A stretch of 54,526 bases of DNA, taken from the NCBI GenBank assembly GCA_030267965.1, contig BRYA01000293.1, positions 6,266 to 60,791 of the forward strand. The letters are read 5' to 3'. The first letter of the stretch is position 1. Each line of letters starts with the position of its first letter. Origin of the DNA: Triparma columacea (lineage: Eukaryota > Sar > Bolidophyceae > Parmales > Triparmaceae). Under the pieces are notes generated by a model. That model made no database searches. It had not been told where the DNA came from and worked only from the letters and a program-made list of their open reading frames with translations. The position numbers and the translations under genes are program-made. Shown here in pieces: positions 36,036 to 54,526 of this stretch.

Positions 36036-36216
36036 GCAGCGAGCGAAGCGAGCCGCGGAGAGGGCTGTGTTAGGGGTGCGGCGAGCAAAGCGAGCCGCGG
36101 AGAGGGCTGTGTTAGAGGATTCAATCATGCGAGGATCCAACCATGCGACCATCCCAATCATGCGACGATCCCCATCATGCGACGATTTCCACGCTCACCC
36201 TTCATCCCACCCTATG
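36036..36216. repeat. Introner-like module outside a coding intron
   Basis: Two GCGAGC(G/A)AAGCGAGCCGCGG units, each followed by AGAGGGCTGTGTTAG, then several ATGCGACGATCC-type words ending in CACGCTCACCCTTCATCCCA. The same string of modules recurs in intron 2 of the UBL gene (36948-37110). Confidence 0.8.
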
Positions 36217-36292
36217 AGTGGCCAGCTTGCATGATATCTGCGTAGCAGATGGGACAAAGTGGACGATGTAAATAGCAATAAATGATAAAATC

Positions 36293-38390
36293 ATGAAACT
36301 CCTTAATGCTTTCGTTGCACTTGCTGCGGTTCTCAACAACGTGAATGGAGAGGTAAGGATATTGTTGTGATTAAAGTTTATGGAAGTAGAGGCATATCAG
36401 GGGAAATTTGGAGGGGCAACGACGACGTCGGGATGGAAGTTTCGGCATGTTGGGGGTATTGGGGAGAGAAGAGGATTGCGGAGGGAAGGAGGAGGCTTAA
36501 GAAGGGGTTTGGGGGAGTTATCTGGCGCGAGTATCGAAAATCGGAGCATTGGGAGGAAGTTGAAGGGTGCTCAAGTCGGTCTTCATGAGGTGGAACGTTG
36601 TGTGTGGGGGCGGCGAGCGAAGCGAGCCGCGGAGAGGACTATGTTAGGGGTGCGGCGAGCAAAGCGAGCCGCGGAGAGGGCTGTGTTAGAGGCGGCGAGC
36701 GAAGCGAGCCGCGGAGAGGGCTGTGTTAGAGGCGGCGAGCGAAGCGAGCCGTGGAGAGGGCTGTGTTGAAGGATTACGCCCAAAGCGTGAAGTGTTCTAA
36801 TCCCTCGTAAATTCCGTTCATCGCAGACGTACACTATTACTCTTAGAGGAAAGAGGATTCCGCTCGTTGGCAAGGATTTGACGGTGAAGGATGTCAAGGC
36901 AGCATGTGGAGAGGCGAGTCCAGGGTTGAAGGAGGTGAGGAGGGGAGGGCGGCGAGCGAAGCGAGCCGTGGAGAGGGGCGGCGAGCGAAGCGAGCCGCAG
37001 AGAGGGCTGTGATAGAGGATTACAATCATGCGAGGATTTTAACCATGCGACCATCCCAATCATGCGACGATCCCCATCATGCGACGATTTCCACGCTCAC
37101 CCTTCATCTCACCCTTCATCCCACCCTTCATCCCACCCTTCATCCCACCCTTCATCCCACCCTTCATCCCACCCTTCATCCCACCCTTCATCCCACCCTT
37201 CATCCCACCCTTCATCCCACCCTTCATCCCACCCTTCATCCCACCCTTCATCCCCAGGACGACATGACTGTGCTTTGCAGTGGCGAGAAGCTCAGCGAGA
37301 TGGGTAGCAAGCTGTCTGAGTGTGGAGTCGAGGACGGCGGAGTGATCAACGTGGTTCCCAAGAAGAAGAAAAAGGCAAAGAAGGCCGCTCCGGTGCCTTC
37401 CACCGCGTCGGTCGATGCGGCATCGGGCGCGTCCTCCCTGGGGGGGGGCATGGATGACCTACTGAAGGGATTTGGGGCGGGGGGAGGGGAAGGCATGGAT
37501 GACATCATGAAGCAGGTGGCGGCGATGCAGGGGGCCAAGGATCCAGTAGAGGTGAGGGGGTGGGGGGGGGGAGGGAGGAGCGGAGGAGGGAGGAGCGAAG
37601 CGACGACCGATTGGTGCGGCGAGCGAAGCGAGCCGTGGAGAGGGCTGTGTTGAAGGATTACAATCATGCTAGGATCCCAACCATGCGACGATCCCAACCA
37701 TGCTAGGATCCCAACCATGCGACGATCCCAACCATGCGACGATCCCAACCATGCGACCATCCCAATCATGCGACGATCCGTATATAGCCCCATAAACTAC
37801 ACCCATGCCCATCCTCCTCTTCGCCTCCCCCTCCCCCTCCCCCCCGCCCCCTCACAGATGCTCCGACTCATGCAGAAGATGCTCAAAAGCCCTGCCGTCT
37901 CTGGTTACCTCAACGACCCAGCGAAGATAGAGCAGGCCAGGCAGATGGTGATCTCCAACCCCATGCTCAAAACCATGGTCTCTTCCAGCCTTCCGGGGTT
38001 CGACGAGATCCTGGGGTCCAAGGAGAGGTGGGCGGAGACCATGGTGGCTGCGAGGGATATGTACCTCAACATGGGAGAGGAGGTAAGGGGTAGAAACGGC
38101 GTTTCCGTTCCCGTTCCCGTTCCCGTTCCCGTTCCCGTTTGAAGAGTTGAGGCGAACTCCCTCAAAAACTACCTCAGAACTCGCGTCCCTCCTCTACCCC
38201 GCCCCTTACACTTGCAACCTCGAATCCTAACACACATCGCACCACGACCACGCAGGAAATCAAAATGATGGCCAAGATGATGGAGGGTCAAATGGGAAAA
38301 AGTGGACCAATGGGTGGACCAATGGGTGGAGGAATGGGGGGAGGAATGGAATCTTCTGACCAGTCTCTCGATGAGCTCGATGAGGATTAA
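36293..38390 (+). CDS. Secretory ubiquitin-like/STI1 protein (ubiquilin-like)
   Basis: Exons 36293-36352, 36827-36934, 37258-37551, 37858-38082 and 38256-38390 (all phase 0) give 273 residues. The first exon encodes a probable signal peptide (MKLLNAFVALAAVLNNVNG). It is followed at once by a UBL fold beginning TYTITLRGKRIPLVGKDLTV and running to GGVINVVP (about 21-90). A Lys-rich linker KKKKKAKK leads to an STI1-like helical region (about 155-229: LNDPAKIEQARQMVISNPML, then WAETMVAARDMY). A Met/Gly-rich tail ends the protein. UBL plus STI1 is the ubiquilin/Dsk2 layout, but no UBA domain follows. Ubiquilins are cytosolic, so a secretory leader is odd. No Phe follows the leader, which argues for ER rather than plastid targeting. 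Confidence 0.78.
36608..36780. repeat. Introner-like modules in UBL intron 1
   Basis: Four successive GCGAGC(G/A)AAGCGAGCC units, each followed by GYGGAGAGG(G/A)CTRTGTTAG-type sequence, inside intron 1 (36353-36826), antisense relative to the copies in the RAP and DRC2 introns. Confidence 0.85.
36948..37110. repeat. Introner-like modules in UBL intron 2
   Basis: Two GCGAGCGAAGCGAGCC units start 13 bp after the donor, then ATCATGCGA-type words, then the CACGCTCACCCTTCATC junction into the 12-bp minisatellite. Confidence 0.85.
37101..37254. repeat. 12-bp minisatellite serving as pyrimidine tract
   Basis: About 13 head-to-tail copies of CCTTCATCCCAC fill the 3' end of UBL intron 2 and run into the CCCCAG acceptor at 37257. 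Confidence 0.9.
37590..37785. repeat. Introner-like modules in UBL intron 3
   Basis: GGAGCGAAGCGACGACC and GCGAGCGAAGCGAGCC modules are followed by several near-identical copies of CCAACCATGCGACGATC within intron 3 (37552-37857). Confidence 0.85.
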
Positions 38391-38816
38391 GCATAATGTG
38401 GAGTATGCATAAGGGAGATTATGTAAAGGCAATGAACCTCAAAACGCTTTGGATTTCTTTAGTCAGCTTGTTATGTCATCGATCGTTTCGTATCGTTACC
38501 AACGGGTCCGTTTCTCCCGTTCCCGTTCCCGTTCCCGTTTGAAGAGTTGAGGCGAACTCCCTCAAAAACTACCTCAAAACTAGCGTCGCTCCTCTTCACC
38601 CGACTCTACCCCGCCCCTCCCCTCTCCCCTCTCCCCTCTCACCCCTCACCCCTCACCCCTCACCCCCCCTCACCCCCTCACTGCACCCCCTTAAAATAAT
38701 GCTGTGATTTACAGAGAATAGACGCAAATTTATCACAAGAAGTCCACGCACTTCGCCCTCATCATCATCCACTTTTCGCTCCTCACCAAAACAATGCTCT
38801 CCCATACCCCGACCCT
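38391..38816. other. Convergent intergenic stretch with an intron-derived copy
   Basis: A segment at about 38517-38600 (repeated TTCCCG, then GAAGAGTTGAGGCGAACTCC and CTCAAAAACTACCTCA) copies sequence of UBL intron 4 at 38104-38180. A C-rich CCCCTCACCCCTC run follows. No gene is seen. Confidence 0.6.
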
Positions 38817-41574
38817 CTAGACGAACTTGCTCTGGTTCGCGACGACTGCGTTTGCTTCCACAAAGGTCATGTTCTGCGTTCCCTCTCCCTCCCTTCTCAC
38901 GGGCAGGGGCTTGTTGAGGTTGACCTTGAAGTTGGTGACGAACAGAGGGTTGTCCTTCTTGAGCACGTCGTCGTTGACGCTGATTCCATCAAAGTACTGC
39001 TGCAAGATCTCCTGCAGGTCCGAATTTTCCTTCCGCAGAGTCTCCTCCGCTTTCTCTATGCTGAGGGCATCGAGCAGAACCTTGTTGTATTTCTTCCAGA
39101 AGTTGTCGAGGTGGTTCCATTTGCCGACAGGCTTCCCGCTTTCGCTCCACGCGCTGCTACTGAGAGGGGTGACCTCTACCCCATCCGTGCTCGCTCCTTC
39201 CCCCCCTTCTCCCTCCTCCTTCTGCTTCTTGATCATGGCCTCCGCCTGCTTCTCGATCTCACCCTCGACACTGCTGACGTAAAAGGGGGTGACCTTCTCC
39301 TGCTCCGTTTCCATCTTCCTTCCGAGCTCAGCGAGCTGCGGCGAGCGAAGCGAGCCGTGGAGAGGGCTGTGTTAGAGGCGGCGAGCGAAGCGAGCCGCGG
39401 AGAGGTGGAATGGTCTGCTCCGCTTCATCCACATCCACCGGTTTCGTGAAATACATATCTTGGGTAGCACTGTTCTTCCCATTCTCACCTTGAGGATCCT
39501 CTCAGCGAGCTGCGGCGAGCGAAGCGTGCGGCGAGCGAAGCGAGCCGTGGAGAGGGCTGTGTTAGGGGTGAAGCGAGCCGCAGAGGATCACAATCATGCG
39601 ACGATCCCCATCATGCGACGATCGGTCATATATTGTACACAGGCACAGGTCGTTATCATTTCTTCCCATTCTCACCTCGCACTTATCCTTGAGGACGTTC
39701 TTGCTCGAGTTGGCATTCTTGGTGAGTTCATTCAGCCTGCTCTTCTGGGTGTTGCGGAACCTGTTCATCCTGCTCTTGAGGTTCTGGAAGTGCTGCTGGA
39801 TTCCATTCTGCAAGGTGCGGAGAGGAGGCGAGCGAAGCGTGCGGCGAGCGAAGCGAGCCGTAGAGAGGGCTGTGTTAGGGGTGCGGCGGGCGAAGCGAGC
39901 CGTGGAAGGGCATATATTGTACACAGGCACAGGTCGTTATCATTTCTTCCCATTCGACGCGCGAGGGCTAACAATTTCTTCTTTGGTGGGAAGAAGGTAC
40001 CGCTCACCACCTCCACACCACCCCTTCCCCTCTTCCTCCCCCCCCCCCACCCCCATTTTTCTCACCTTTTCCTCGCTGAGACTGGCGTTCCTCTGCTGGC
40101 ACTCCTTTTTGTTTTGGCTGATCTTCATCTTCCACGTCTGGAGCGAGCTCTGGAGCCTGTCGATTTTCCTTATTTTCTGCTCGATCTCCTTGCTAAGCTC
40201 CTGGTCCTTCCTCGTGAGGTTCTTGAACTCCGTCGTTCTCTGGTCAGTGTGCTGCAAGTACCCATAATGGGCATTCTCAAAGAGCCCCTCCAGAGTTTCG
40301 ATCTGGGTGTCCAACGTGATCCTGAGAACGTTGATCTCCTCGAGGTTCTTGTTTCTGATTTCCTCTCTGAGCTGCTCGTGCTCTTGCCTGGCCTCGGCTT
40401 CCCTCTCCTGCTCCTCAGCATCGATGGCAGTCATGATGTCGTTGAGCTCCTTAACCTCGCTGGATGGTGCGGAGAGGCGGCGAGCGAAGCGAGCCGTGGA
40501 GAGGGATGTGTTAGGGGTGAAGCGAGCCGCGGAGAGGGAGGAGCGAAGCGAAGACCGAAAACGCACAACAGGGAGGAGCGAAGCGACGACAGAAAACGGA
40601 CAATGCTCTCTAAGTGCTCTCTAAGTGCTCTCTAAGGGCTAACAATTTCTTCTTTTGGTGGGAAGAGGGTACAACTCACCTGGAGTGCTGGCTGACGATG
40701 AGTCTCCTCTCTTTGTCGAATTCGTTCTCTAGGGTCTGGAGCTCTTCTTCAAACTCCTGCTCGAGCCCGAGAAGCCTCGCGTCCTGGAGATCAATGAGCT
40801 TGTCCATGTTCTGAAGGTGGGTGCGGAGGGCCATTCCGAACTGGTCCTCAGCCTCCTCCAAGTCGCGATCAAGCATCTGAATAATGGCGTCCTTCCTGTC
40901 GACGTCCCTTTCGTGGTTCTGGCTCAGGACCTGGGGGGACGAGCGAAGCGAGCAACGAGCGAAGCGAGTCGAGGAGAGGGTGGGGGGGGGTGAGTGGGGG
41001 GGGTGAGTGGGGGGGGTGAGTTATTGCTGAGAAGGGTAACTAAGTTGCAGTAGTGGAGGGAGGAGCGAAGCGACGGAGGAGCGGTACGACGACCGAAAAC
41101 GGACAATGCTCTCTAAGTGCTCTCTAAGTGCTCTCTAAGTGCTCTCTAAGTGCTCTCTAAGTGCTCCTCAACCCACCCCCCCCTAAACGCACAACAGGGA
41201 GGAGCGAAGCGAAGTCTGAAATACCCCAAGTTCGAGTTCATCGGATCGGAGCCCATTGATTTCGATTCACCTGATACGAACCACCCCCCCCCTTCGCCCC
41301 CCCCCCCTCCCCTCCACCAACTCACCTCAATCTCCTTCCTCAAACTATCGACCTTGTTGATTCTCATGATTTTCCTCCAGAGAGTCTGAATCTTCAGGCT
41401 GTTCGCCCTACTGTTCCTCTGCTCTTGCTCCATCTTCTGTTTTAATATCCGTTTCGCCTCGAGGTACTTTGCCCTCATCAGGTCGGTCTCCTTCACAGCA
41501 TGGAGCTTCGACTCGTCACCGGCCAGCCCGCTGGAGGTTATGGCCGCCCCCTTACTGCTCTTACCGAGGCGCAT
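38817..41574 (-). CDS. DRC2: Dynein regulatory complex subunit 2 (CCDC65/FAP250-like)
   Basis: Structural coiled-coil protein of the nexin-dynein regulatory complex in motile cilia; marks an organism with flagella at some stage. Exons: 41326-41574, 40680 to about 40924, 40066-40459, 39676-39807, 39489-39509, 38817-39335. This gives about 517-519 residues against 484 in human CCDC65. From memory of the family, diagnostic stretches are EEQEREAEARQEHEQLREEI, RNKNLEEINVLRI, TDQRTTEFKNL and LDNFWKKYNKVLLDAL followed by LQQYFDGISVND. A 21-nt exon encodes LAERILK, which the family needs between KDKCE and LAELGRKMETE. The start of exon 2 is uncertain because several AG sites lie within 18 nt. All five introns carry introner-like modules. 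Confidence 0.92.
39339..39660. repeat. Introner-like modules in DRC2 introns 4 and 5
   Basis: On the coding (minus) strand both introns end with the series CCCTCTCCACGGCTCGCTTC, GCTCGCCGCAG directly at the acceptor. Both flank the 21-nt exon at 39489-39509. Confidence 0.85.
39826..40000. repeat. Introner-like modules in DRC2 intron 3
   Basis: Two or three GCGAGCGAAGCG units, then TATATTGTACACAGGCACAG with GTCGTTATCATTTCTTCCCA, the latter shared with intron 4 at about 39632-39672. The donor-side block GGGCTAACAATTTCTTC is shared with intron 2. Confidence 0.85.
40474..40665. repeat. Introner-like modules in DRC2 intron 2
   Basis: GCGAGCGAAGCGAGCCGTGG block, then GGAGCGAAGCGA(A/C)GAC units, then the 11-bp TGCTCTCTAAG repeat and GGGCTAACAATTTCTTC near the donor. 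Confidence 0.85.
40935..41215. repeat. Introner-like modules in DRC2 intron 1
   Basis: GAGCGAAGCGAG units near the acceptor, GTGAGTGGGGGGG repeats, then at least five copies of TGCTCTCTAAG (41105-41165) and another GGAGCGAAGCGAAG unit. Confidence 0.85.
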
Positions 41575-41994
41575 ATTGAGGTTGGGGTCTAATTAGGAAG
41601 GGTCCGGATGAGGCTGTTAGGGAAGGGGGAGAGGTCTTTTTGGGAGCTTCTGACTTCCTTGACGGGATTTCGAGTACTTGTAGGTTTAGATTGCCGTTCG
41701 ATATTATGTCTCAGGCAATGGGGGTTGGGTAGGGTGGGGTCGATTGCGTGAATTGGAAAAATTATTTGGGTCAATTCGGAGTCAAGGTCCGCAAAAAAAA
41801 CTGGTTAGTGTGGACAACCCCAAATCCACTCAAATACAATCAAATACGGCAATATTTAGACCGAGTTACTGCTCCCGCCCCCTCCCCTGACGCATCCAGC
41901 CCTCCACTTCCGAGACGAGCTCCCAGACCTCCCCAAGTCCTGAACCAAGTGTCGAGAAGAACAGGCAGATCCACTTGACAACTAGGGTCTAGTG
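41575..41994. other. Divergent 5' flanks of DRC2 and SNARE genes
   Basis: No coding sequence or introner-like module is seen. Two direct words CAAATCCACTCAAATACAAT and CAAATACGGCAATA lie at about 41821-41855. Confidence 0.45.
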
Positions 41995-43439
41995 ATGGCG
42001 CTCTGCTGCTCCAACGACTCGTCGTACCTCGACGCGGACCTGGAACGCTGCATATCGTCGCTCCGGGAGCTGCAGGATTCGTTAAGGGCAGAGACCCACC
42101 GTCATGCTGCCCCAGTGCTGGAGGAGGGGGGGGACATGTTCAATAATTTGAAGAGCCAAATCGTCGGTAGGCTATGCACAGTGAGGACATTGCTAGAGAA
42201 TACGGGGGGGGGGGGAGGGGGTGGAAAGGTACGGCGAGCGAAGCGAGCCGCAGAGAGGGGCGGCGAGCGAAGCGAGCCGCAGAGAGGGCTGTGTTAGAGG
42301 ATTACAATCATGGACGAAGCGATTAATTGTAACCCTTATTCTCAACCCCCTACCCCCTACCCCCTAACCCCTAACCCCCCCTACCCCCTACCCCCTACCC
42401 CCTACCCCCTACCCCCTACCCCCTACCCCCTAACCCCCTAACCCCCTACCCCCTACCCCCAACCCCCTCACCAGTCCCCAGCTCCAGGTACACCTGTCGA
42501 CCCCCAGACCTCGATTCGCCTGCAATCAGCGATTCGAGAGAACGTGCGCCAACTGAACGAAGAATTCCGGGACCTCGAAAATTGCTACAAGTCAGAGTCC
42601 TCACGCCGTCGACGAAAGTACTCCCCGGCGGAGGCAGCAGGGAGGCGCCAGCTAGTCTCCCAACTAGCAGAGGAAATCGCAGCAGTCAAGACTCTCCAGA
42701 AAAGACAGTACATGGAGTCTTACAGGGATCCGTCATCCCAAGTCAAGTCGATGGAGGATGCGGAGCTGTTCTCGCATGGTAAGGCGGTGCGGTGCGGCGA
42801 GCGAAGCGATGGCGAGCGAAGCGAGCCGTGGAGAGGGGCGGCGAGCGAAGCGAGCCGCAGAGAGGGCTGTGTTAGAGGATTATTATCATGCGACGATCCC
42901 AACGTTTGTGGTACACAGGCACAGCAGGTCTGAGAGAGCCGAGCGAATCGAGAATCAATATCAACACTCCGCCACTCAACCACTCCGCCACTCAACCACT
43001 CCGCCACTCAACCAACCCGCCACTCAACCAACCCGCCACTCCACCTGCAGCTCAAGGCCAGTCAGACTGGAGCGATGACTTCCTCCAGTCGTCTGACGTT
43101 AACGCATCCCAGAAGCAATCACTGTTGACGATAAAGCAGAGAGAGGCAGCGTTCGAATCCACCATTAAGTCAATTGGTGCTGGCGTACTCGACCTCCACG
43201 ACCTGGCAGTGCGGCAGAACGAAGAGGTCAAGATGCAAAACATGATGCTCGAGGACATGGCAACGAGGATGGAGGGCGTATCGGGAAAGATGGAAAATAT
43301 TAACAGGAAGATGAAAGTCACGTTGAGGAACGTCGCGAGGGGGGGAGACAAGCTTTGCGTTGACATAGTTTGCGTCGTGCTTGCTCTTGGCCTGGCCGGC
43401 GTGGCGTGGAGAGAGTTCAAATTGAAGGAATATATCTAA
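41995..43439 (+). CDS. Tail-anchored Q-SNARE-like protein
   Basis: Membrane fusion factor. Exons 41995-42228, 42475-42778 and 43051-43439 keep phase and give 308 residues. The N-terminal part is helical (ADLERCISSLRELQDSLRAE), and exon 2 is also helical (QLNEEFRDLENCYKSE). Near the C-terminus a SNARE-type heptad region (AFESTIKSIGAGVLDLHDLA, then VRQNEEVKMQNMMLEDMATR) holds a Gln suitable for the zero layer. A single membrane helix (VDIVCVVLALGLAGVAW) and a short tail EFKLKEYI follow. The layout is that of a Qb or Qc SNARE of the secretory or endosomal pathway; the subclass cannot be fixed by eye. Both introns contain introner-like modules, and intron 1 also a telomere-like C-rich repeat. Confidence 0.75.
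42231..42315. repeat. Introner-like modules in SNARE intron 1
   Basis: GCGAGCGAAGCGAGCCGCAG units begin 3 bp after the GT donor at 42229, followed by AGAGGGCTGTGTTAGAGGAT and TACAATCATG. Confidence 0.85.
42343..42470. repeat. CCCCCTA/CCCCTAA telomere-like array in an intron
   Basis: About 125 bp of near-perfect CCCCCTA units with occasional CCCCTAA variants form the pyrimidine tract in front of the CACCAG acceptor at 42474. Confidence 0.85.
42785..42960. repeat. Introner-like modules in SNARE intron 2
   Basis: Three GCGAGCGAAGCGA units just after the donor, then GGGCTGTGTTAGAGGATTAT, ATCATGCGACGATCCCAA and ACACAGGCACAG, the last shared with DRC2 introns. Imperfect repeats CCACTCAACCACTCCG close the intron. 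Confidence 0.85.
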
Positions 43440-43890
43440 TAATGTTGTGACAAATACTTTGGCCTTATTTGACGGCGAGAGGCGAGAGAGGAGGCGAAGA
43501 AAGCGAAAATTGCAGCAGGAGTCAGGGCGCAAGCCGCAGCGGAGGCGAGGCCTGCAGAGGCGAGGGGGCTAACGAACACGGAGGCGATGGCAAAGAACAT
43601 GCTGTCAAAGCAAGAGGAAGTTGCGACGCTCAAGGACTTGATTCAAACCGTCGGCGCCCCCCTCAACCTCTTCAGCGACACGACTGACGTGGAAAAGAAG
43701 TGTAGAAGTCGACACCGCTTGCCAATCTCAAAGGTCGGGGGCAAGAAGGCAGACTTTACTGCACGCTGAGGCCTCGACGGACTGAGGCGAAAAGAGAGGA
43801 CATGACAATTTACATGACAGATTTCAAGCATTTCAACAAGCTTTATTTTCGTTTCTTATACCCTTGCTGAAAATCATCTCCCTCACCCTA
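43440..43890. other. Convergent stretch with a short unresolved open frame
   Basis: Between the SNARE (+) and FUN14 (-) genes. A 60-codon frame runs from 43587 to 43769 (+), with a plausible-looking piece NMLSKQEEVATLKDLIQTVG, but no upstream exon or splice site could be tied to it. It may be a gene remnant or 3' UTR. Confidence 0.35.
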
Positions 43891-44954
43891 TTACCCAGCC
43901 AACCCAACGAGGAAGCCTAGACCGAACCCGCTCGAAGACGGGAGGTTAAATGTAAGGAAGCTCTTGGCCTTTTTGTAGTACACGAGCGCATCCTTCTTCG
44001 TTATCTTGCCGTCACCGTCGGCGTCAACGATCTTCTTGAAGTCGTTGGAAACCTGGGTTAGTGAGGGGGTGAGGGGGGGGGAGCGAAGGAGGGAAGCGAA
44101 GCGACGACCGAAAACGGCGACGACCGAAAACGCACAACCGTAGCCGCCTCTTAACCCCCCCCCCCCGGTATGCAACATCGGTGTCTTCCACGCGTCTTAC
44201 GCACCTTGCCCCACTTGACGTCGATATATCCAGAGTAGGCCATGGCCTGCAGGGCAATGTACCCCGTCCCTATGAGCGCAGCAATCCTCTTCCCAATCTG
44301 CTTCGAAGCATAACCAGCGCAGTAACCGAGGAAGCTGCCGTAGGAGACCTGGGGAGTGGGGAGGTTAGGCGGGGAGGGGAGCGCCATCATCGTCGGGATG
44401 GTTCTTATTTGAACATTCCCTCCACTCCCATTTCCAACCCCAATCCTCACCTGACTCGCGAGCGCCCCGTACTTGTCCATGAGCGCATTAAGTATCTCCT
44501 CATCATTACCATCATCACCGGAGGAAGACGAGGAGGGGAGGCGCTTAGCTAGTGGCATGAAAAGGGGGATCCTTCGCGGGTGTTAGCGACAAGTGATCAC
44601 GGATCCCAATCCCCTCGCCCTTCTCCAAAAAAAGGTCACACACCAGCCCACTGTCTCATTCCCGTGAAAGAATTTGGCGATTTTGACCCCCTTCCAAAAC
44701 CCCACTTACTTTGAGGTGTCGCCAACCGACATATATTCATCACAAGATCCTGATCCTCCTCCCATCGATAGTGCGCCGCCTCCCAAGAGCATAGCAAGGC
44801 CCACTTTTTTGGTTACTTTCTTACGGGAGGAGGACACCCCCAATTTCACGACCCTTACGCGCGTTGAAGAGCTACCAGCCCCTGCATCGGCTGCAGCAGT
44901 GAAAATAGACCTCGATGTATTCGGATACGACCGATAGAAGAGGTAGGAGCGCAT
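43891..44954 (-). CDS. FUN14-domain protein with EF-hand loop
   Basis: Four exons, 44710-44954, 44451-44571, 44205-44348 and 43891-44052, agree in phase and give 223 residues. The Arg/Ser-rich start MRSYLFYRSYPNTSRS looks like an organelle (mitochondrial) leader. The FUN14 core is YGSFLGYCAGYASKQIGKRI followed by ALIGTGYIALQAMAYSGYI and VKW. FUN14 proteins sit in the mitochondrial outer membrane, and animal FUNDC1 is a mitophagy receptor. The loop before the last helix is a canonical 12-residue EF-hand, DADGDGKITKKD (about residues 178-189), not found in human FUNDC1. The last hydrophobic piece FGLGFLVGLAG ends the protein. No LIR-type YxxL motif is obvious near the N-terminus. Confidence 0.84.
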
Positions 44955-45519
44955 GGCCTAGGATATGGACAAACATAGGAGGATGCAAGGAAGGAGGAAG
45001 GTATATGAAAAATTGTAGCAAAAAAACGCAATTCTGTAATATTCCTTTGAGGAATTCCTTGGAGTAAGTTTCGCCCCTTACGCTCCAAACGATTTCTACT
45101 GTGCTAACCCTCCTCCGTCCTTCCCACTCTAGATAGCTCAGTTGTGCGTAATATCCACCATATAACATACCTTTATCTTCCCATTCTCACCTTTTTTCAC
45201 TTACAGGGCAGAGCGTTTGACTGTAGCAGTAACATTCATCAAACAGTCAGTAAGTTTTCTTCCCTCTTCAGACGTATTCTATACTCAATCTTACCCTATC
45301 CTTTCCTTTCTCTATAGCTGGTTCGAGTAAGTCTCATATAACCTTTCAATATGATTACACGCATCTTCTTACCGTTTTCCAACAGTTCCGGTTTCCGAGA
45401 CAACATTTTTTTTTGCCCAGCGAGGGGACGACGGAGGAGCGCGTTCGGGGGAGACGGGCAGATAGAGTGAAGGAAAATAATCAACAATTCACATTACATT
45501 CACAACAACGACCAAGACT
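44955..45519. other. Stretch with candidate tiny exons, plus strand
   Basis: No long open frame. Three GTAAGT donors (after 45063, 45249 and 45318) and YAG acceptors (near 45133, 45206, 45309, 45388) could define very small plus-strand exons; see findings. Otherwise it is the 5' flank of FUN14 and 3' flank of the second LRR gene. Confidence 0.35.
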
Positions 45520-46632
45520 TCACAGAAACTCCAGAATTACTCTCCACAAAACTTTCGGGATCTTCTCACGTGCCGGAGTTACCCTTTCCGCGGGGGCTTC
45601 AACTCCGTCCGTTCGTTTCCTCTTCAGACTATCCGATCCGCTGGGTGGAGTGTGATCCCAGGTTCTCTTGAGGCACAGAAGAGCGTTGACGCGTTCGATC
45701 ACAGCGACATTGCGATGCCACCTGTAATGGAGGAGGTCCGAGACAGTCGGCATGTTCTTATCAGCAGCTGCAGCGATTAGGGCAGTGCAGCCTGAGAAGC
45801 AGTCTTCACCGATGGAAACGGCAGGAGATAGAATGAGCTTCGTCAGGGCGGAGCAATTTCTGAAGGCACGATAACTAATCGACGTCACTGAGTCCGGGAT
45901 TGTGATGGCCGTGAGGGAGGAACATCTGTTGAAGGCTTCCCTACCAATCTCTGTCACTCCGTCCGGGATGGTGATGGCCGTGAGGGAAGAGCATCCCCAG
46001 AAGGCGTACTCGCCAATCATCGTCACTGAGTCCGGGATGGTGATGGCCGTGAGGGAGGAGCATTCGTAGAAGGCCCAGTCATCAATCATCGTCACTCCGT
46101 CCGGGATGGTGATAGCCGTGAGAGAGGAGCATCCAGAGAAGGCGCCATCGCCAATTGTCGTCACTCCATCCGGGATGTTGATGGCCGTGAGGGAGAAGCA
46201 TCTTCTGAAGGCATCTTCGCCAATCGTTGTCACTCCGTCCGGGATGGTGATGGCCGTGAGGGAGGGGCATCCCCAGAAGGCACCTTCGCCAATCGTTGTC
46301 ACTCCGTCCGGGATGGTAATGGCCGTGAGGGAGGAGCATCCGTAGAAGGTGCCCTTGCCAATCTTCGTCACTCCATCAGGGATGGTAATGGATGTGAGGG
46401 AGGTGCATCTATAGAAGGCGCCCTCGCCAATCGTCGTCACTCCTTGTGCAAAAGTCACTTCTGTGAGTTCATGATCGCCTCTGAAGCTCTCTGTTCCAGA
46501 GTATACTGCTGTTATGGGAAGGGGAGAGTCCTCATCATCTGTGTAATAGTCACTACTATGGTAATCACTATACTCATCACTATCGCCATCACTGTAGTCA
46601 TCACCATACGGAAAAAAATCTATTTCACTCAT
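45520..46632 (-). CDS. BspA-type leucine-rich repeat protein (copy B)
   Basis: Single exon, 370 residues, minus strand, paralogous to the gene at 26704-27909. It begins with an acidic Asp/Ser/Tyr-rich leader (DDYSDGDSDEYSDYHSSDYY) that copy A lacks. Then comes the shared AVYSGTESFRGDHELTEVTF and about ten 23-residue BspA units (CSSLTAITIPDGVTTIGEGAF type). The C-terminal block (LLHYRWHRNVAVIERVNALL, then SLKRKRTD and KIPKVLWRVILEFL) is almost unchanged from copy A, which shows recent duplication or gene conversion. No signal peptide is seen. Confidence 0.9.
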   Translation of the reverse strand: MSEIDFFPYGDDYSDGDSDEYSDYHSSDYYTDDEDSPLPITAVYSGTESFRGDHELTEVTFAQGVTTIGEGAFYRCTSLTSITIPDGVTKIGKGTFYGCSSLTAITIPDGVTTIGEGAFWGCPSLTAITIPDGVTTIGEDAFRRCFSLTAINIPDGVTTIGDGAFSGCSSLTAITIPDGVTMIDDWAFYECSSLTAITIPDSVTMIGEYAFWGCSSLTAITIPDGVTEIGREAFNRCSSLTAITIPDSVTSISYRAFRNCSALTKLILSPAVSIGEDCFSGCTALIAAAADKNMPTVSDLLHYRWHRNVAVIERVNALLCLKRTWDHTPPSGSDSLKRKRTDGVEAPAERVTPAREKIPKVLWRVILEFL

Positions 46633-47318
46633 TGTAGGGATGGAGAGGATCTCTTATACCGTCCTTTCGGTAACCTAACCCTAACCCTGGATTTATTATA
46701 CAGTTTTGTCCTTAACAGCTTCAATCCTCAAGGAATTCCTACATTATTGACGGGATAAGCAGGGTTAGTGTGGTGTGATTGACAAAGAACAAGAGAGAGG
46801 GATGGTGAGACTCCTCAAGGAATGCATCATTGTGGCGTCAATGGCAGTTATCTGCCCCATATAAACCCCAATATGGTACTAATAGTATCTGAAAAATGGC
46901 CGAAAGTAGTATTATCTTGTCCATGAGACGAATAATCCAAACCCAATGATTACTCAGTGTCGACCACGATTGTGGAAATAGCTTGAACTTGACGTGAATG
47001 GGATATTACAATCAACGATAGGACCAAAGACAAGTGATGAAAGCCTTATAACAAGTGTATCATTGTCATTATTGTGCTTCTTACCTATATTTCAAAGCTA
47101 TATTTTTGCCTGCATTTCCTCTTCTCACTCACCCTATCATCTCTCTCTTCCTCCCTTTTACTTCAATCATACAACCCTTACCCTTTACATTAAAGTCTGC
47201 GAATTCTCTCCACACACTCTCACCCCCCTTTCTCACAATATCTCTCTCCATCATCGTCTTAATCCTCATTTCTCCTCATTCTAAAACACCGACTCTACCT
47301 CTCTGACCCCTGCCCAAT
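46633..47318. other. Divergent 5' flanks of LRR copy B and RAP gene
   Basis: A short telomere-like word CCTAACCCTAACCCTGG lies at about 46673. The rest is AT-rich, turning CT-rich towards the RAP start codon. No gene seen. Confidence 0.45.
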
Positions 47319-50300
47319 ATGCACTCTCATAATATGCGTCTGCTATTCATTCTATCACTCGTTCTATCTCCACCCCAATCCCTTCCCTTCTTATTCCCCA
47401 CACTCCCCCATCCCTCCCATCACCTCCTCCAAGCCAGGGGTAGAATGAGCCCTGCCGAGTACAAGGATTTCCAGAGGGCCAAGGCGTTCAACCTAGAGAT
47501 TGTAAAGTCCCCGTCCTCGTCGGACCTCTTGGCGCTGCTGAGCAAGAAGTTGATAAACCCGCCGCAGCACCCCAGCGCTACCCCAAGAAAGAGGCCAGTT
47601 TTCGAGCTCAACATGGTGAACTACTGCACGGCCCTCAACCGCCTGGCGAAGGTAAGGAATGGATGGTAGAGAACCAGGAGCTGTAGCGACACTTACATCG
47701 AACCCCCCCCCCAAAAAAACTAACACAAATGACTATAACTCGCTCCTCCAATGTTCTGTCGTCGCTTCGCTCCTCCAAGGTAAGGAATGGATGGTCGACC
47801 AGGAGCTCCGATGGAGTCTTTGTGGGGCAGAACGAAGTCCTAAAGATCCACCCTCTTATGAAGAACCACTTCCTCGGCGTCCTGGAGGAGAGGGAGGGGG
47901 GAGAGGCCGGCGGGAACAAAAGGGAGAGAGGTCCCCTCAACAATCACGGAGGGCTCAACTTACATCGAACCTCCCCCCCAAAAAAAACTAACACAAATGA
48001 CTATAACTCGCTCCTCCAATGTTCTGTCGCTTCGCTCCTCCTCCTCCAGGGTCAGGATCGCGCCGAGGTTGTCATGGGCGACGTGCGGTTCGCCCTCCTG
48101 ATGAAGAAGCTGGGTGAGAAGATAGCTGCCACCCCCCCCGACGAACTGGGAGGTCGCGAGATTGCAGGCCTCGTCTGGGCCCTCGGCAAGATCCTCCGCG
48201 CAGCCTCCCCCGTACCCCTACCGACCTCGGACCTCCCCTCCCTGACCTCTGACCTCGGCTCCTTACTGATGGAGGCCGGCAGGGACAGTGTCAAGCGGGA
48301 GAGCAAGGTCTGGGTGGAGGGCGTCGTCAGGGTGGCCGGGGGGATCGTGGGGGAGATTTTGGATTGGGAAAAGGACGGGGGCAGGAGATGGAAAGAGCAG
48401 GAGATCTCCAACTACGCGCACGGCCTCGCTAACTTGAGGGTTTACGCCCCCGATGAGGTGAGAATGAGCAAGAATCGAAGAGGAGCTGCTCGTGGAAAAG
48501 GCGATAAGGTTGTACCTCGAGCGCCACCTCTGTACCTAAGAGTGCCTCACGTCAGAGCGGAAAAGCGCTGCTGCGAGCAAGGACACTCGCTCGACGAACA
48601 AACCTATCCACCCCATTCCCCGCTAACGCACCCCAATAACGCATCCCAATAACGCACCCCAATAACGCACCCCAATAACGCACGCACCCCAATAACGCAC
48701 CCACCCCTTCCGCGACTCGCTTCGCTCGTCGCTCTCGCTCGTCGCAGCTCCGATGGGTGAACAGTGCACTTATTGGGAAGCCGGAGGGGAAGAGTCAGGA
48801 GTACGCGAATGTAATGTGGGCGAACGCCGTGACTCTTGACCAGAGCGACGCGCCTTCCGTGGAGGTCGGCTTCTGGGGAGTTGTGGAGGAGGCGGGGAGG
48901 AGATTACGGAAGTGGGAGGGAAAAAATCAAGGTGAGAATGGGCATCTGGCACATCATATTGATATCCGCGTCCCTAAATTGCAACCCGCGCGCGAGCAGA
49001 GCGAGCTTGAATGAAGAGCTTGCTGCGGCGGCGCAACAACCTCGTCTTTGCGATCTTCCCCCTCCCTCCCTCCCCCAACCCCCCCCCCCAACCCCCCTTT
49101 GGCCGTCGCTTCGCTCCTCCAAGAAATATCAATAATGGCATACTCCATAGCCGTCGTCTCCAAATTCTCCCCCCCCTCGGCTGAGAATGACGCCAAGGTG
49201 AGAATGGACGGGCGGTGGCGTTTCCTATGCGTACGAACAAACCAACCGCAAAAAATGCCGGCGATAAGGAGGGAGGAGGCGCGGCATCGACCCTTAGAGC
49301 TCCACACGCTCCTCGCTCTGTTCCAACCAACCCCGTTCGAATGGACGGGCGGTGGCGTTTTCTATGCGTACGAACAAGCCGAACCGCAAAAAGTGCCGGC
49401 GATAAGGAGGGAGGAGACCCGGCATCGACCCTTAGAGCTCCCGACGCTCTTCGCTCTGTTTCAACCAACCCTGTTCGGTCGTCGCTTCGCTCCTCCCACC
49501 TTCGCTTCGCTCCCCCCAAACCCTAGGCCCGAGCCTTCTTCTCCGCCCTGGTCCAAAAAAGTGAAGGCATCTGGACCGGCTTCAAGCCTCAGGTGAGAAT
49601 GGACGGGCTGTGGCGTTTTCTATGCGTACGAACAAGCCAACCGCAAAATATGCCGGCGATAAGGAGGGAGGAGGCACGGCATCGACCCTTAGCCTCTGTT
49701 TCAACTAACCCCGTTCGGTCGTCGCTTCGCTCCTCCCACTTCGCTCCTCCCGAACCCCAGGAGATCTCCAACTTCCTCTGGTCTGCCGCCACCCTCGACA
49801 CGTGCTCGACCGATGCGGGCAAGACTCTCTTCAAACAGCTTGAGGCCCGCAGCCTAGTCAACCTCGAGGATTTTGGCAACTTGGAGTTGCAGAACCTCGT
49901 CTGGTCCGTCAGCAAGGTGAGAATAAGAAAGAATCGAAGCGGCTCGTGGAAACAGGCGATTCAGACCTTGCGTTGTACCTCGAGCGAGCGCCACCTCTGT
50001 ACCTAAGCCTCACGTCAGAGCTCAACCCAACCCAATCTAATCCACAAATACAACCCTTATTGCGACTCGCTACGCTCGTCACTCGCTACGCTCGTCGCAC
50101 TCGTCGCACTCGCTACGCTCGTCGCACTCGCTACCCTCGTCGCACTCGCTACGCTCGTCGCAGGGCGGGAACCCAGCCTCCGTCTATCCCGCCGTCCTCA
50201 AAACCCTCCCCTCTCGCCTCTCCTACCTGAACCCTCAGGACGTCTCTGTCCTCCTTAGCAGTTTCAGCAGGGCCGGCTGGTACGATAAAGAATCCTTTGA

Positions 50301-52988
50301 GATGCTGGCTGGTAGGATCGGGGGCGGCAAGTTTTACAGCCCCCAGCACCTTAGCAACTCGATAGCCGCCCTCGCCGGCGGGGGCTTCGGCCCTGAGGAG
50401 GGCGAAGCTTTCAATGACGTTTTCGAGAGCGTCGGCAAGGAGGTTGCGCGCAGGGGTGCCGGGGTCTTCAAGATTCAGGAGGTTAAGGACGTAGTGTGGG
50501 CTTTCAGCAAGGTGAGAACGGGACGAAAGGACGAAGAGGGGGGGGGGGGGGGTTCTAAGTTGAAGTTTGCGCCAATATTGCCCCCTTCCCAAACCCTTTC
50601 AGCGGTTCGCTTCGCTCACCGCCCCTTCCGCGGTTCGCTTCGCTCACCGCCCCTTCCGCGACTCGCTTCGCTCGTCGCTCACCGCAGGTTGGGGCGGTCG
50701 ACGATAATCTATTCCAGGTGTTTGCGGAGGATATTCTAGAGAGAGACCTTGAACGGGAGAGTATGGAGAGTCTTAGTATGATGTTGTACGCGTTCGCGAA
50801 GTTAGGAGACGCGGTTGGAAAGGGCGGGAGGGGCGGCCAGGTGAGAACGACAAAAAGACAAAAGAAAGAAGAGGGGAGGGGGTTTTAAGTTGAAGTTTGG
50901 CGCCAATATTGCCACCATCCCAAACCCCTTCAGCGGCTCGCTTCGCTCACCGCCCATACCTTACCCAATACCCCTTCCGCGACTCGCTTCGCTCGTCGCT
51001 CAGGGGGGTGGGAAATTAGGAATCTACGACAGAATCGAAAGGGTCCTCGGCTCTCACGGCCCCGCCCTTTTCTCCAAGCTTGTCAACTGCGTGGACGTTA
51101 GGAAGTGCGATAGCATGGACCTGACCAACATCATCTATGCCCTGGGCCTTGTCGGATACTTGGAGGAGGATTTCTTCCAGGCGGCCACCGACGAGGTTGA
51201 GAAGAGGATGCGAAGGGGGGAGTGTTTTGACGCCATCCAGATAAACAACCTGCTCTGGGGGCTCAGCACGACGGGCTCGGAAGTGGAGATGGGCGGCGTC
51301 ATTGATTGGGTTAACGAGAACTTTGACAATATCAACTGGACCCCTACGGAGCTCTCCAGTATCCTGTGGAGCCTGTTCGTGAAGAACGTCGGAGCCCAAA
51401 ACGAGAGTTTGGTCAAGAAGGCGTGGAGCACTTGTGTGGGGGATAGGAAGAGCGGAGGAAGGTGAGACAAAATTTTGGAGGCGGAAGACACAAAGACACA
51501 ACCCTTGCAGTCAGCTTCTTCGCTCTCGTGGTTTAGAGGAGCGCAAGGCATCAGAGGAGCGCAAGGTACCTCAACTTCTACACAAGCATGATCCCTTCCG
51601 CGACTCGCTTTGCTCGTCGCCACGGCATCAGAGGAGCGCATGGTACCTCAACTTCTACACAAGCATAATCCCTTCCGCGACTCGCTTCGCTCGTTGGCAC
51701 TCGCTTCGCTCGTCGGCACTCGCTTCGCTCGTCGCCACTAACAAATTCCCGCGCTCTATCTTTCCCGCTCTTTGCTTCGCTCGTCGCAGGGGGGAGCTCA
51801 ATCAGCAGAGCATGATGAGCCTTATTCAAGTTCAAGTCGCTGCAGAGATCCTCGAGGGGATTCAACTAGAGTTCGGGGAAAGTTGGGAGGGGAAGGACGT
51901 TGAGGGAGGCATTAACATTTCCAAGTTGCAGAAAGACGTTCTCGCGACACTCGAAAGCAATAACGTCGAAGGAGAGGGTCGTTGGGACTGGATGGAGGAG
52001 GTGACGATTGGCCAGGTAAGCACAGGGCCGAAGGACGAGGACGAGGCCGAGGTTGCCGACAAGCTCATTACCCTGAAGCGCAACATTTTGGGACTTCGAG
52101 AGAAGAGAGTCGAGCGAATTGCTGTTGCCAAAGAAGGTGAGAATTGTCGAAAGCCAACAGCATGCTAGTTCTATACTAATGCCCGAACCCCCCCAATCCT
52201 TCGCTCCTCCCCTCAGAGAACAGCTACAGGAAAGAGCGCTAAACGCTATAACCTGGTCGCATGGTTTGGGATGGTCTGTCGCATGGTTGGGATCCTCAGC
52301 ATGATTGTAATCCTTCAACATAGCCTTCTCCACGGCTCGCTCCGCTCGCCGCTCGCTTCGCTCGCCGCGCATTTACTTCTGCTTACACAGCACATGCTCG
52401 TTCGCTCACCGTTTCGCACCAGGTTGACGAAGCTCATGCCGGCAAAAATCTGCTTGGGCTCAAGCACCTTAGTGTCGACATTGCGGACGTTAAGAAAAAG
52501 GTTTGCGTGGAGGTGAGAAACGGGCTAATATTGCGATATTCTAACCCTAACCCTAACTGACACACTCCTCTACGCCGGCTCGCTTTGCCCGCCGCCGCTT
52601 CGCTCGCCGCTAGGTACAAGGACCCAGCCACTATGTTTTAGACCTTGGGGAAGACGGCGGCTCGGGCATAAGGGACAGGATGAACGGGAGGTGAGAATGG
52701 GCAAATGACAAAACGCTTAGCACGACTCTTCGTTCACTAACTCAACGCTTCGGATCGCAGCACGAAGATGAAGTTAAGGCTCTTGCAGAGGTTGGGTTGG
52801 AAATGCATTTGTGTTGAGTATTGGAGGTAAGATTGATCGCGGGGCTTCAGATATATGAGACTATTCCCTTCAGCACAATCGCTAACCCTCAATTCCCACC
52901 ACTTTACTCCCCTTCCCTTCAAAGGTGGACCAAGAACAAGGAGGACAAATTAAACTCGCTCCAAGGGCTTGTTACCGCCGCCCCCTAG
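47319..52988 (+). CDS. Plastid-targeted RAP-domain protein with OPR-like helical repeats
   Basis: Exons: 47319-47651, 48050-48457 (or from 47780), 48748-48931, 49124-49197, 49527-49592, 49761-49916, 50164-50511, 50688-50840, 51004-51461, 51790-52015 (or to 52136), 52423-52512, 52614-52690, 52761-52826, 52925-52988. Phases agree, giving about 900 residues. The signal peptide MRLLFILSLVLSPPQSLP is followed by FLFP, a Phe-type transit motif for complex plastids. Helical repeats recur: QEISNYAHGLANL, QEISIMAYSIAVV, QEISNFLWSAATL, LQNLVWSVSK, INNLLWGLSTTG. The C-terminal RAP domain reads LSVDIADVKKKVCVEVQGPS, then HYVLDLG and LGWKCICVEYW. Such proteins handle organelle RNA processing or stability. 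Introns are largely introner-like. Confidence 0.85.
47650..48049. repeat. Duplicated element in RAP intron 1 region
   Basis: The boundary word AAGGTAAGGAATGGATGG occurs at 47649-47666 and again at 47777-47794. A second block (CTTACATCGAACC, a C/A run, CTAACACAAATGACTATAAC, TCGCTCCTCCAATGTTCTGT) occurs at about 47691-47779 and 47960-48049. Confidence 0.9.
48458..48747. repeat. Introner-like RAP intron 2 (shares 5' half with intron 6)
   Basis: The 5' half (GTGAGAAT, AAGAATCGAAG, TGTACCTCGAGCG, GCCACCTCTGTACCTAAG, CCTCACGTCAGAGC) is shared with intron 6 at 49917. Then come CACCCCAATAACG repeats, and CGACTCGCTTCGCTCGTCGC near the acceptor. Confidence 0.87.
49198..49526. repeat. Introner-like RAP intron 4, internally tandem
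   Basis: Two tandem units about 137 bp apart (49202 and 49339), each starting GAATGGACGGGCGGTGGCGT and ending TCTGTT(C/T)CAACCAACCC. It closes with GGTCGTCGCTTCGCTCCTCC and a CCCTAG acceptor. Confidence 0.9.
49593..49760. repeat. Introner-like RAP intron 5, near-copy of intron 4 unit
   Basis: GTGAGAATGGACGGGCTGTG through ATGCCGGCGATAAGGAGGGA, GCATCGACCCTTAG, CAACTAACCCCGTTCGGTCG and TCGCTTCGCTCCTCCC matches the intron 4 unit almost base for base. The similarity begins at the donor and ends at the acceptor. Confidence 0.9.
49917..50163. repeat. Introner-like RAP intron 6
   Basis: The 5' half matches intron 2. The 3' half is a run of CACTCGCTACGCTCGTCG units that ends in the CAG acceptor. Confidence 0.87.
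50512..50687. repeat. Introner-like RAP intron 7 (pair with intron 8)
   Basis: Shares GTGAGAACG, TTCTAAGTTGAAGTTTG/TTTTAAGTTGAAGTTTGG, GCCAATATTGCC, CCCAAACCC and TTCAGCGG(T/C)TCGCTTCGCT with intron 8. Ends CGACTCGCTTCGCTCGTCGC, TCACCGCAG. Confidence 0.9.
50841..51003. repeat. Introner-like RAP intron 8 (pair with intron 7)
   Basis: Same order of blocks as intron 7 from donor to acceptor, closing with CCTTCCGCGACTCGCTTCGC and TCGTCGCTCAG. Confidence 0.9.
51462..51789. repeat. Introner-like RAP intron 9 with 77-bp tandem
   Basis: Direct units begin GCATCAGAGGAGCGCA at 51548 and 51625, each running through CCTCAACTTCTACACAAGCA to CCGCGACTCGCTT(C/T)GCTCG. Further CACTCGCTTCGCTCGTCG copies, CACTAAC and the CGTCGCAG acceptor follow. 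Confidence 0.87.
52137..52422. repeat. Introner-like modules in RAP intron 10
   Basis: Reverse-complement order of the UBL/SNARE intron series: TGGTCGCATGG, GTCGCATGGTTGGGATCCTC, CATGATTGTAATCCTTCAAC, CCACGGCTCGCTCCGCTCGC, CGCTCGCTTCGCTCGCCGC. Confidence 0.85.
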
Positions 52989-53786: not shown

Positions 53787-54526
53787 ATGAATAACCATGA
53801 AGCTCTGCTCGCTGAGAGGGAGGACGAGATCGTGCAGCTAAAGGCTATAACAACAAAACTGTTTGCCGACCTTACTGCTGCCGCATCTTCCGCCAGCGAA
53901 GTTGCCGCCGCCGTCAAGGACGCAGCAGGCGAGGGCGCAACTACAGCTGGCATTGTCACGGTTGTAAATGACCATGCCATCACCCTTAGGGCCGCTGCAG
54001 ATCGCGCCGCAGCTCACGAACGTGCCGCCGACCGCGTTGAGACCATCGAGGTAGCACAACGCCGCGGCGTTGTCCCCAAGGCCAACGCAGACAATGCAGC
54101 AGCCCCTGAGGTTGCCGCAGAGAATACTGCCGCCCCTGAGGCCGTCGATGACTCTGCTGCAGCCCTTGATAGAGCCGCTGCAGATCGCGCCGCAGCTCAC
54201 GAGCGTGCCACCGACCGCGTTGAGACTATCGAGGTAGCGCAGCGCCGCGCCGATGTCCCCAAGGCCACCGAAGACTATGTTGACGCCCCTGAGGTTGCCG
54301 CAGAGAATACTGCCGTCCCTGAGGCCGTCGATGACTCTGCTGCAGCCCTTGATGGTGGCATGGACGATAACACCACCCACCCTGCCCTAAATAAGATAAA
54401 AGACAAGCAATATCAAGCCCACGAGGAGATGGTGGGCGAGCTTGTCGAGCGCGGTGCCGTTGAAGGCATCATTGAGCAGTCGTGGGATACTAAGAGAGCG
54501 AATGTCGGCGTAGTCGTTCATGACGA
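53787..54526 (+). CDS. Alanine-rich tandem-repeat protein (3' end outside window)
   Basis: A frame open from the ATG at 53787 to the window edge (246 codons). It starts MNNHEALLAEREDEIVQLKA, a helical, probably coiled-coil segment. It then holds two copies of a 61-residue unit starting at 53988 and 54171 (RAAADRAAAHERA, VETIEVAQRR, APEVAAENTA, PEAVDDSAAALD). A CCGCAG acceptor at 53767 is in frame with the ATG, so this may be an internal exon starting at 53768 and the true start further left. After the repeats the sequence is less biased (KIKDKQYQAHEEMVGELVER). I recognise no family. Unit-to-unit identity is high, so the duplication is young. Confidence 0.65.
   Translation, partial: MNNHEALLAEREDEIVQLKAITTKLFADLTAAASSASEVAAAVKDAAGEGATTAGIVTVVNDHAITLRAAADRAAAHERAADRVETIEVAQRRGVVPKANADNAAAPEVAAENTAAPEAVDDSAAALDRAAADRAAAHERATDRVETIEVAQRRADVPKATEDYVDAPEVAAENTAVPEAVDDSAAALDGGMDDNTTHPALNKIKDKQYQAHEEMVGELVERGAVEGIIEQSWDTKRANVGVVVHD
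53988..54353. repeat. 183-bp coding tandem repeat
   Basis: Two units of 183 bp (from 53988 and from 54171), in frame, encoding the 61-residue alanine-rich repeat. Confidence 0.88.

Follow-up and report, generated by a model that had tools for sequence, protein, structure and literature searches.

The 54,526-base stretch of Triparma columacea DNA analysed here (hereafter the window) lies on contig C283, and introns of several of its genes are built from repeat modules that recur across the genome. The sequences point, on balance, to an introner-like system, in which copies of introns have come to occupy new sites in genes throughout the T. columacea genome, in a modular, hairpin-ended variant that would have spread at the DNA level. 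Such copying is supported by sequence comparison for two families of similar introns (D and F) and likely for two others (A and C). The wider set appears to work like an introner, and among the compared stretches it stays below four members similar at both ends. The commonest layout would comprise (i) a conserved 5' cap, (ii) a variable body, sometimes with (iii) a CTAAC branch-site-like box, and (iv) a hairpin near the 3' end.

The compared assembly of T. columacea (Parmales, Bolidophyceae) consists of 37.85 Mb in 789 contigs and may be a filtered version of the one described in the genome paper (43.0 Mb, 1,858 scaffolds), where the deposited gene annotation is stated to be built from protein hints only, and whose main text contains no word starting with "intron" (PMC10328945). 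Genes were modelled with a gene finder that was trained on the long open frames of the window and that requires or strongly prefers GT-AG introns; a corrected run was used for counts. The main intron sample comprised 232 introns from 70 genes (62 with introns), largely picked by the presence of the repeat, and the stretches compared in detail represent well under 1% of the genome.

The clearest copies belong to family D. An intron of the RAP-domain (RAP) gene of the window (47652-47779) was matched on contig C454, inside a PNPase gene, and on contig C13, inside another gene, with BLAST identities of 96% (bases 1-99) and, gaps counted, 80% (bases 1-126 of 128), respectively. Gaps aside, 94-98% of the aligned bases are identical (103/110 for RAP-C13, 98/100 for RAP-PNPase and 89/93 for PNPase-C13). 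All copies start with GTAAGGAATGGATGG and finish with CTCC(A)AG, their exon flanks are dissimilar, and the host genes are unrelated in protein (no RAP-PNPase match at E 10; best match for C13 at E 1.5). The C454 copy lies inside PNPase, whose spliced protein aligns without gaps with solved PNPases across the site, and the C13 copy was placed between open frames of its gene. The acceptor of the RAP copy is uncertain, because a second D 5' end adjoins its 3' end.

Family F comprises three near-identical PNPase introns (130, 107 and 94 bases); the protein is ungapped across all three sites, with one one-residue gap between the first two. Most D and F copies follow an AG, the dinucleotide in which they also end, and copies may usually land directly after an AG, which would preserve the spliced frame. 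RAP and PNPase also have families A and C in common, with the similarity starting at the 5' splice site. Similar introns also lie between dissimilar 30-base exon flanks within RAP (families A, B and C) and within a gene of contig C750 (5958-8265), whose three similar introns (6087-6216, 6850-6975 and 7636-7794) reach 93% identity over 134 bases in the best pair. The statement of an earlier, sequence-only reading of the window (the first-pass annotation) that adjacent exons share nothing was borne out in the 30-base flanks of three RAP intron pairs, and for the hairpin core described below. By eye, D, A and F have complex bodies; the arrays of hairpins and of 17-base units consist of tandem repeats. 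RAP and PNPase share families A, C and D, and each gene lies about 8 kb or less from a contig end; C454 and C283 might be neighbours, which would make this sharing local.

Shared modules, hairpin ends and 5' caps

All four modules named in the first-pass annotation exceeded chance in the window: GCGAGCGAAGCGAGCC matched 34 times at ≤2 mismatches (shuffle mean 0.05), and GGAGAGGGCTGTGTTAG, ATGCGACGATCCCAA and GGTCGTCGCTTCGCTCCTCC matched 14, 20 and 12 times, respectively, at ≤3 mismatches (shuffle means 0.24, 1.33 and 0.01). Three of the 20 ATGCGACGATCCCAA matches, with three mismatches each, lie left of 21.3 kb, which is about chance level. The placement of the modules in introns of the ubiquitin-like (UBL), DRC2, SNARE and RAP genes was confirmed, since 40 of the 41 exact copies of the core, TCGCTTCGCTC, fall in predicted introns, none in an exon and one elsewhere (36041). 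Predicted introns cover 10,647 and exons 29,697 of the 54,526 bases, and the intron enrichment has P ~1e-27 by a simple binomial that ignores repeat clustering. FUN14, already described as sharing the modules weakly, has one 3-mismatch copy of the fourth module (44090-44109) and no exact core. The left 35 kb, reported as nearly empty, is so for the exact core (present in 1 of 24 introns before 35.85 kb vs 20 of 27 after it), but not for decayed hairpins (score ≥6 in the last 60 bases), which were detected in 7 of 23 core-free left introns vs 1.5% of shuffles.

Genome-wide, the 16-mer GCGAGCGAAGCGAGCC occurs 182 times exactly (control 0), and the window, with 16 of these, is a local hot spot for it. 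The palindromic unit GCGRYTCGCTTCGCTCRYCGC was found 321 times (reversed control 0) and the 11-base core 1,794 times, the first 100 listed forming 76 clusters at 1 kb; a reversed-pattern control for the core (1,139 matches) was discarded as useless, the core being almost mirror-symmetric. The idea of a single family in neighbouring genes had to be abandoned, as the modules are genome-wide and modular. Fifteen sites on other contigs were picked blind to context, 8 at intervals in the hairpin list and 7 at the head of the list for the 16-mer. Of these, 11 lie in a predicted intron, 1 in a predicted exon and 3 without a gene model. Repeats restricted to introns and common to unrelated genes, on which the first-pass annotation had based its introner proposal, were observed both in the core counts and in family D, with its three unrelated hosts.

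The hairpin unit is a 21-base palindrome, GCGRY-TCGCTTCGCTC-RYCGC, whose tightest form adjoins the terminal AG. Among the 232 introns, the core is in pyrimidine sense in 84, in purine sense in 25, in both in 1 and in neither in 122. From the last pyrimidine-sense core to the intron end the median distance is 21.5 bases and the commonest is 7 (one arm plus AG; 8/84), while purine-sense cores begin a median of 20 bases past the 5' splice site. AG is absent from the first core to the acceptor in 62/84 introns, so an AG-exclusion rule accounts for much of the positional pattern: the pyrimidine-sense unit, free of AG, would be tolerated just ahead of the acceptor, and the AG-rich purine-sense unit would persist near the 5' end.

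The inner arm positions of the hairpin covary, with 68 of the 100 units listed showing two Watson-Crick pairs, against a mean of 38 and at most 53 in shuffles, and the commonest fully paired types (GCGAC/GTCGC, GCGGC/GCCGC and GCGGT/ACCGC) constitute 70 of the 236 units of the compared loci. The 32 units that are not fully paired comprise 5 with G-U in the pyrimidine-sense RNA and 27 with A-C or C-A. Such mismatches are expected from the mixing of unit types or from DNA-level events rather than from RNA wobble, and RNA pairing as the sole source of the covariation is disfavoured. Folding of single units was unremarkable in DNA (z -0.7 to -1.7) and somewhat better in RNA (z -1.3 to -1.9 in pyrimidine sense, -2.3 to -2.6 in purine sense). 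Among core-free introns, 16% of 116 carry a decayed hairpin (score ≥6) in the last 60 bases vs 2% of shuffles; the first 60 bases antisense gave 10% and the other two strand/end controls 2.6%. Of 84 introns, 37% have a [CTA]TAAC box within 45 bases 5' of their first core, vs 20% at random positions, and a branch-site role of the CTAAC box is only partly supported.

The 5' cap is a 16-base extended 5' splice site, AGGTGAGAATGGRCAA, of the form AG/GTGAGAATGGRCAA. It occurs genome-wide 132 times exactly and 609 times at ≤1 mismatch; the reversed sequence gave 0 and 8 matches, and a control with the same splice site and a permuted tail 2 and 32, so that the cap is 19-fold above the latter at ≤1 mismatch. 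Among 150 introns starting with GTGAG, a pyrimidine-sense core was more frequent with the cap than without it, at ≤2 mismatches (17/24 vs 51/126, p=0.007), ≤3 (25/34 vs 43/116, p=0.0003) and ≤4 (30/51 vs 38/99, p=0.02), as well as with one intron per gene and class at ≤3 (15/22 vs 26/72, p=0.013). Twelve of the 132 cap introns were inspected. In each, the approximately 33 bases before the cap hold at least one open frame, which is weak evidence, and a plausible acceptor lies 59 to 184 bases downstream of the cap; it was picked by eye over a better-scoring one in L094, L096 and L102, and L094 was cut one base off. Their likeness ends, by eye, after about base 14, and core-free introns also tend to GTGAGAAnGG. 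A 3' half-hairpin is present in 6 of the 12 vs 4 of 24 left-window introns (p=0.053), a link to cap introns that is suggestive only. A long consensus (CTAAYRCAACCC...core) was rejected as a genome-wide signature, being nearly gene-specific (5 matches, 4 on C750). On viral contigs, the hairpin was found in 14 stretches and the cap in 24.

The module set of the first-pass annotation corresponds to an element, E1, in which (ATGGTTGGGATCGTCGC)n precedes ATGATTGTAATCCTCTAACACAGCCCTCTCCRCGG and the hairpin. Besides the UBL, SNARE, DRC2 and RAP genes, the compared stretches of twelve other contigs contain E1, which lies in both orientations relative to predicted genes. Over 36-43 kb it keeps to one chromosome strand across UBL (+), DRC2 (-) and SNARE (+), and neighbouring cores (first 100 listed) lie on the same vs different strands in ratios of 22:2 at <1 kb, 11:4 at 1-5 kb and 17:17 at >5 kb. 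Both patterns argue for local DNA-level spread of E1. The system may spread by transposition or by template switching at the hairpin, mostly locally, given the one-strand run across three alternating genes, and tandem growth, end reassortment and decay could turn young copies into ordinary-looking introns.

An RNA route would instead have spliced introns reverse-splice into further positions of their own or of different transcripts, which are reverse-transcribed and recombined into the genome, and would deliver whole introns with seamless ends. The junction-to-junction copies without visible target-site duplication agree with it, as do the many copies per gene between dissimilar exons, an argument made for fungal introner-like elements in the cited passages of PMC8469720. 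We regard this route as unlikely, since E1 and the hairpins are found both in sense and in antisense to genes, the local strand sharing continues across oppositely directed genes, and one E1 copy has no predicted intron around it.

Weight of the evidence

According to the criteria given in the cited part of PMC9860276, introner similarity begins within 5 exonic or 10 intronic bases of both junctions in each of the two introns, and a family holds at least four introns; the host proteins are unrelated, the sequence is more than a low-complexity repeat, and efficient splicing and presence or absence in relatives, as a sign of recent gain, are further marks. Both ends were compared in 26,165 cross-gene pairs from the 232 introns, with thresholds at the 99.9th percentile of reversed-sequence scores. 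Pairs similar and anchored numbered 38 for the 5' and 116 for the 3' end (43 and 144, with none at both ends, in an earlier BLAST version with 218 introns), and three pairs passed at both ends within genes (A, C and a C786 pair). Across genes, both ends were similar in no pair in the same orientation and in one pair in opposite orientation, a count that is conservative, because poly-C tracts are the probable cause of the high threshold and the sample did not include the C13 copy of family D. By eye, the similarity runs from junction to junction in D (PNPase-C13 and RAP-C13) and, within PNPase, in F, and genes with unrelated proteins share similar introns (D, A, C and E1 across RAP, PNPase, C13 and others). 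The introner interpretation of the first-pass annotation is supported as regards the near end-to-end copies of family D. The modules that the annotation named, however, mostly make up parts of introns rather than whole-intron copies, and lie in either orientation relative to the gene. In this sample, shared ends are the rule and whole-length cross-gene copying the exception, in a mosaic of ends.

Besides the scarcity of both-ends pairs, the following observations weigh against introner-like copying: (i) family D consists of three full members and one tail, in a search that scored the best candidates only; (ii) the D copy in PNPase is preceded by CG, not AG, and the preference for AG ahead of the other copies is partly built into the gene finder; (iii) neither a terminal inverted repeat nor a target-site duplication, which in MITE-like introners measures 3-9 bp, was seen in six D and F copies, inspected by eye with no formal search; (iv) the introns are our own gene-finder predictions, except for DRC2 and parts of PNPase, an early window-wide run wrongly fused genes and was superseded by the corrected one, and the PNPase model was re-cut by hand, its frame being lost further downstream (17 stops); (v) a cruder first count with a 9-base core (n=220; 43 other stretches, mostly picked by similarity) gave 170 intronic positions, 35 in neither class and 15 in predicted exons; (vi) the cap-core association is not significant at ≤1 mismatch (6/8 vs 62/142, p=0.14); (vii) CTAAC is not enriched in the last 70 bases (27% of core introns, 33% of core-free ones); and (viii) GCGRYTCGCTTCGCTCRYCGC occurs in many bacteria and haloarchaea, with at least 120 matches, several per genome in some.

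The prokaryotic count exceeds a rough chance estimate of ~2 to 20 for that collection. Among the matches listed, 88 units were examined; their commonest arms are GC/GC (28) and GT/AC (27), and 59 lie within stop-free stretches of at least 450 bases. The hairpin sequence repeatedly emerges, or spreads, where spliceosomal introns are absent and is not diagnostic, so that a shared hairpin alone is no proof of common descent. Its presence in prokaryotes would suit a history in which old introns were colonised by a palindromic minisatellite through slippage and gene conversion, introns being where it is tolerated, with the cap as a selected splicing signal and no new introns. The tandem arrays of hairpins and 17-base units, the hairpin position explained by AG exclusion, the restriction of similarity mostly to one intron end, the mere ~14 bases common to the 12 cap introns and the leaning of core-free introns to GTGAGAAnGG fit that history as well. 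It is nevertheless improbable in view of families D and F, whose whole-intron copies have dissimilar exons on either side, and of the 19-fold excess of the cap over its permuted-tail control, and we favour introner-like copying. It is doubtful that a large share of T. columacea introns, some of ordinary appearance among them, derives from one modular system whose mobile units would be the intron ends themselves (cap and hairpin 3' end), reassorting and decaying by hairpin-directed DNA copying.

Genes and introns of the window

The features of the repeat-rich part of the window are listed in Table 1. The protein from the spliced DRC2 model matches the deposited T. columacea one with 100% identity (521 aa), and its T. 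verrucosa orthologue shares 83% identity over the full length. Pfam placed FUN14 and RAP above the cut-off and supported the other two genes below it. A search with the RAP protein, in which only candidates sharing most words were scored, returned 10 distant relatives (21-26% identity).

Table 1. Predicted genes and module-bearing introns in the right part of the window.
Feature	Position	Strand	Basis or content
Ubiquitin-like (UBL) gene	36293-38390	+	gene finder
DRC2 gene	41574-38817	-	gene finder; protein identity to deposited sequence
Syntaxin-like SNARE gene	41995-43439	+	gene finder
FUN14 gene	44558-43891	-	gene finder, Pfam
RAP-domain gene	47445-52988	+	gene finder, Pfam
E1-like copy 5' of UBL start codon	36032..36213	+	exact core at 36041, the window's sole one outside predicted introns
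UBL intron 1	36353..36826	+	four purine-sense hairpin units (36609-36767), one with altered core
UBL intron 2	36935..37257	+	E1 antisense to gene, then (CACCCTTCATCC)n array
UBL intron 3	37552..37857	+	antisense E1, ~seven 17-base units
DRC2 introns, five	41325-40931, 40679-40460, 40065-39808, 39675-39510, 39488-39336	-	pyrimidine-sense cores in every one
SNARE introns	42229-42507, 42779-43050	+	purine-sense hairpins within ~20 bases of 5' splice site
FUN14 intron	44053..44204	-	single weak module copy (44090-44109); no exact core
RAP intron, family D copy	47652..47779	+	near end-to-end copies in PNPase (C454:19308-19209) and C13 gene (52184-52294)
RAP second D start, with second D tail (47958-48057)	47780..48049	+	preceded by zero-length exon in model; probably mis-modelled
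RAP intron, family B	48458..48747	+	partner is 49917-50163
RAP intron	48932..49123	+	single core just 5' of 3' end
RAP intron, family A, two internal copies	49198..49526	+	first ~100 bases from 5' splice site common with PNPase intron
RAP intron, family A	49593..49760	+	
RAP intron, family B	49917..50163	+	variant hairpins (TCGCTACGCTC); no exact core
RAP intron, family C	50512..50687	+	GCGGT/ACCGC hairpins
RAP intron, family C	50841..51003	+	both ends resemble intron 50512..50687; 30-base exon flanks unrelated
RAP intron, tandem hairpin units	51462..51789	+	relatives are introns on C104, C106
RAP intron, E1 in sense	52137..52390	+	
RAP intron, weak hairpin copy (52577-52592, 2 mismatches)	52513..52613	+	
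RAP intron, 70 bases	52691..52760	+	exact 5' cap GTGAGAATGGGCAA at start; contains CTAAC box

In the left part of the window, a minus-strand model (28258-32775; 1297 aa) has 6 introns, one with an exact core and the other five with a decayed-hairpin score ≥12 at the 3' end. Two single-exon leucine-rich genes on opposite strands (26704-27909 and 45520-46653), which we take to be BspA-like, contain 69-base repeats and share 78% identity over 678 bases; a third copy, on C11, is fused to another gene in the model. Short telomere-like CCCTAACCCTAA runs lie inside the contig at 46671-46690 and 52541-52558 (the latter within a RAP intron), and a 183-base tandem duplication (53987-54353; 91% identity) is located near the contig end.

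Comparison with known introns and mobile elements

The origin of new spliceosomal introns is an old question. Parmales, the sister group of diatoms, have several public genomes, some with RNA-seq, according to the cited part of the genome paper (PMC10328945), which makes gain, splicing and mechanism directly testable in close relatives. In that paper, RNA-seq served for T. laevis f. inornata, T. verrucosa, T. retinervis and "Scaly parma", and not for T. columacea. As the copies span near-identical (D in RAP and PNPase) to decayed ones, an intron may be traceable here from birth to anonymity, and a combination of conserved ends with free middles would be a warning that end-to-end clustering overlooks introners. 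In the full-text literature, with most subscription journals and supplements outside the search, no paper joined "introner" with Parmales, Triparma or Bolido-, and the hairpin string was found in 13 papers, with no title among them concerning algae.

Helitrons have a short conserved 5' end, a hairpin near the 3' end and no target-site duplication; their marks are a 3' end in CTRR, a Rep-helicase and integration between an A and a T. The elements described here resemble them in the conserved 5' end and the 3' hairpin, but the D and F copies, ending in AG and mostly following AG, show no CTRR end or A/T target, which speaks against a Helitron. A search for Helitron_like_N (PF14214) gave 0 matches and was uninformative, 14 control genomes being equally silent.

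Introners, as presented in the cited part of PMC9860276, are likewise similar introns in unrelated genes, with an aquatic unicellular host, several families per genome and opposite-orientation insertion allowed for; their likeness up to the splice junctions has a counterpart, by eye, in family D. Unlike them, the introns described here usually combine a conserved cap and a conserved hairpin end around a divergent middle, and cross-gene end-to-end pairs are rare. The main text of that paper, the supplementary tables lying outside the search, mentions no Triparma, bolidophy-, stramenopile, hairpin or palindrom-. The introner elements of Amoebophrya, in the cited passages, are also introns that recur, contain structure-forming inverted repeats and have been proposed to move; their inverted repeat links the two ends of mostly non-canonical introns, and direct repeats of 3-5 nt overlap the borders (PMC7789003). 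In contrast, the introns of T. columacea are GT-AG (which the gene finder requires or prefers), with a local hairpin near one end. The symmetrical stwintrons of Hypoxylaceae and fungal introner-like elements are similarly seamless and palindromic; flanking duplications are absent there, and none was seen by eye in the D and F copies. A decay of the fungal elements into ordinary-looking introns has been proposed in the part of the paper cited (PMC8469720). Their terminal inverted repeats, as given there, span the intron, measure 45-55 nt and are functional only on the coding strand (PMC8469720), whereas the T. columacea hairpin is short and found in both orientations.

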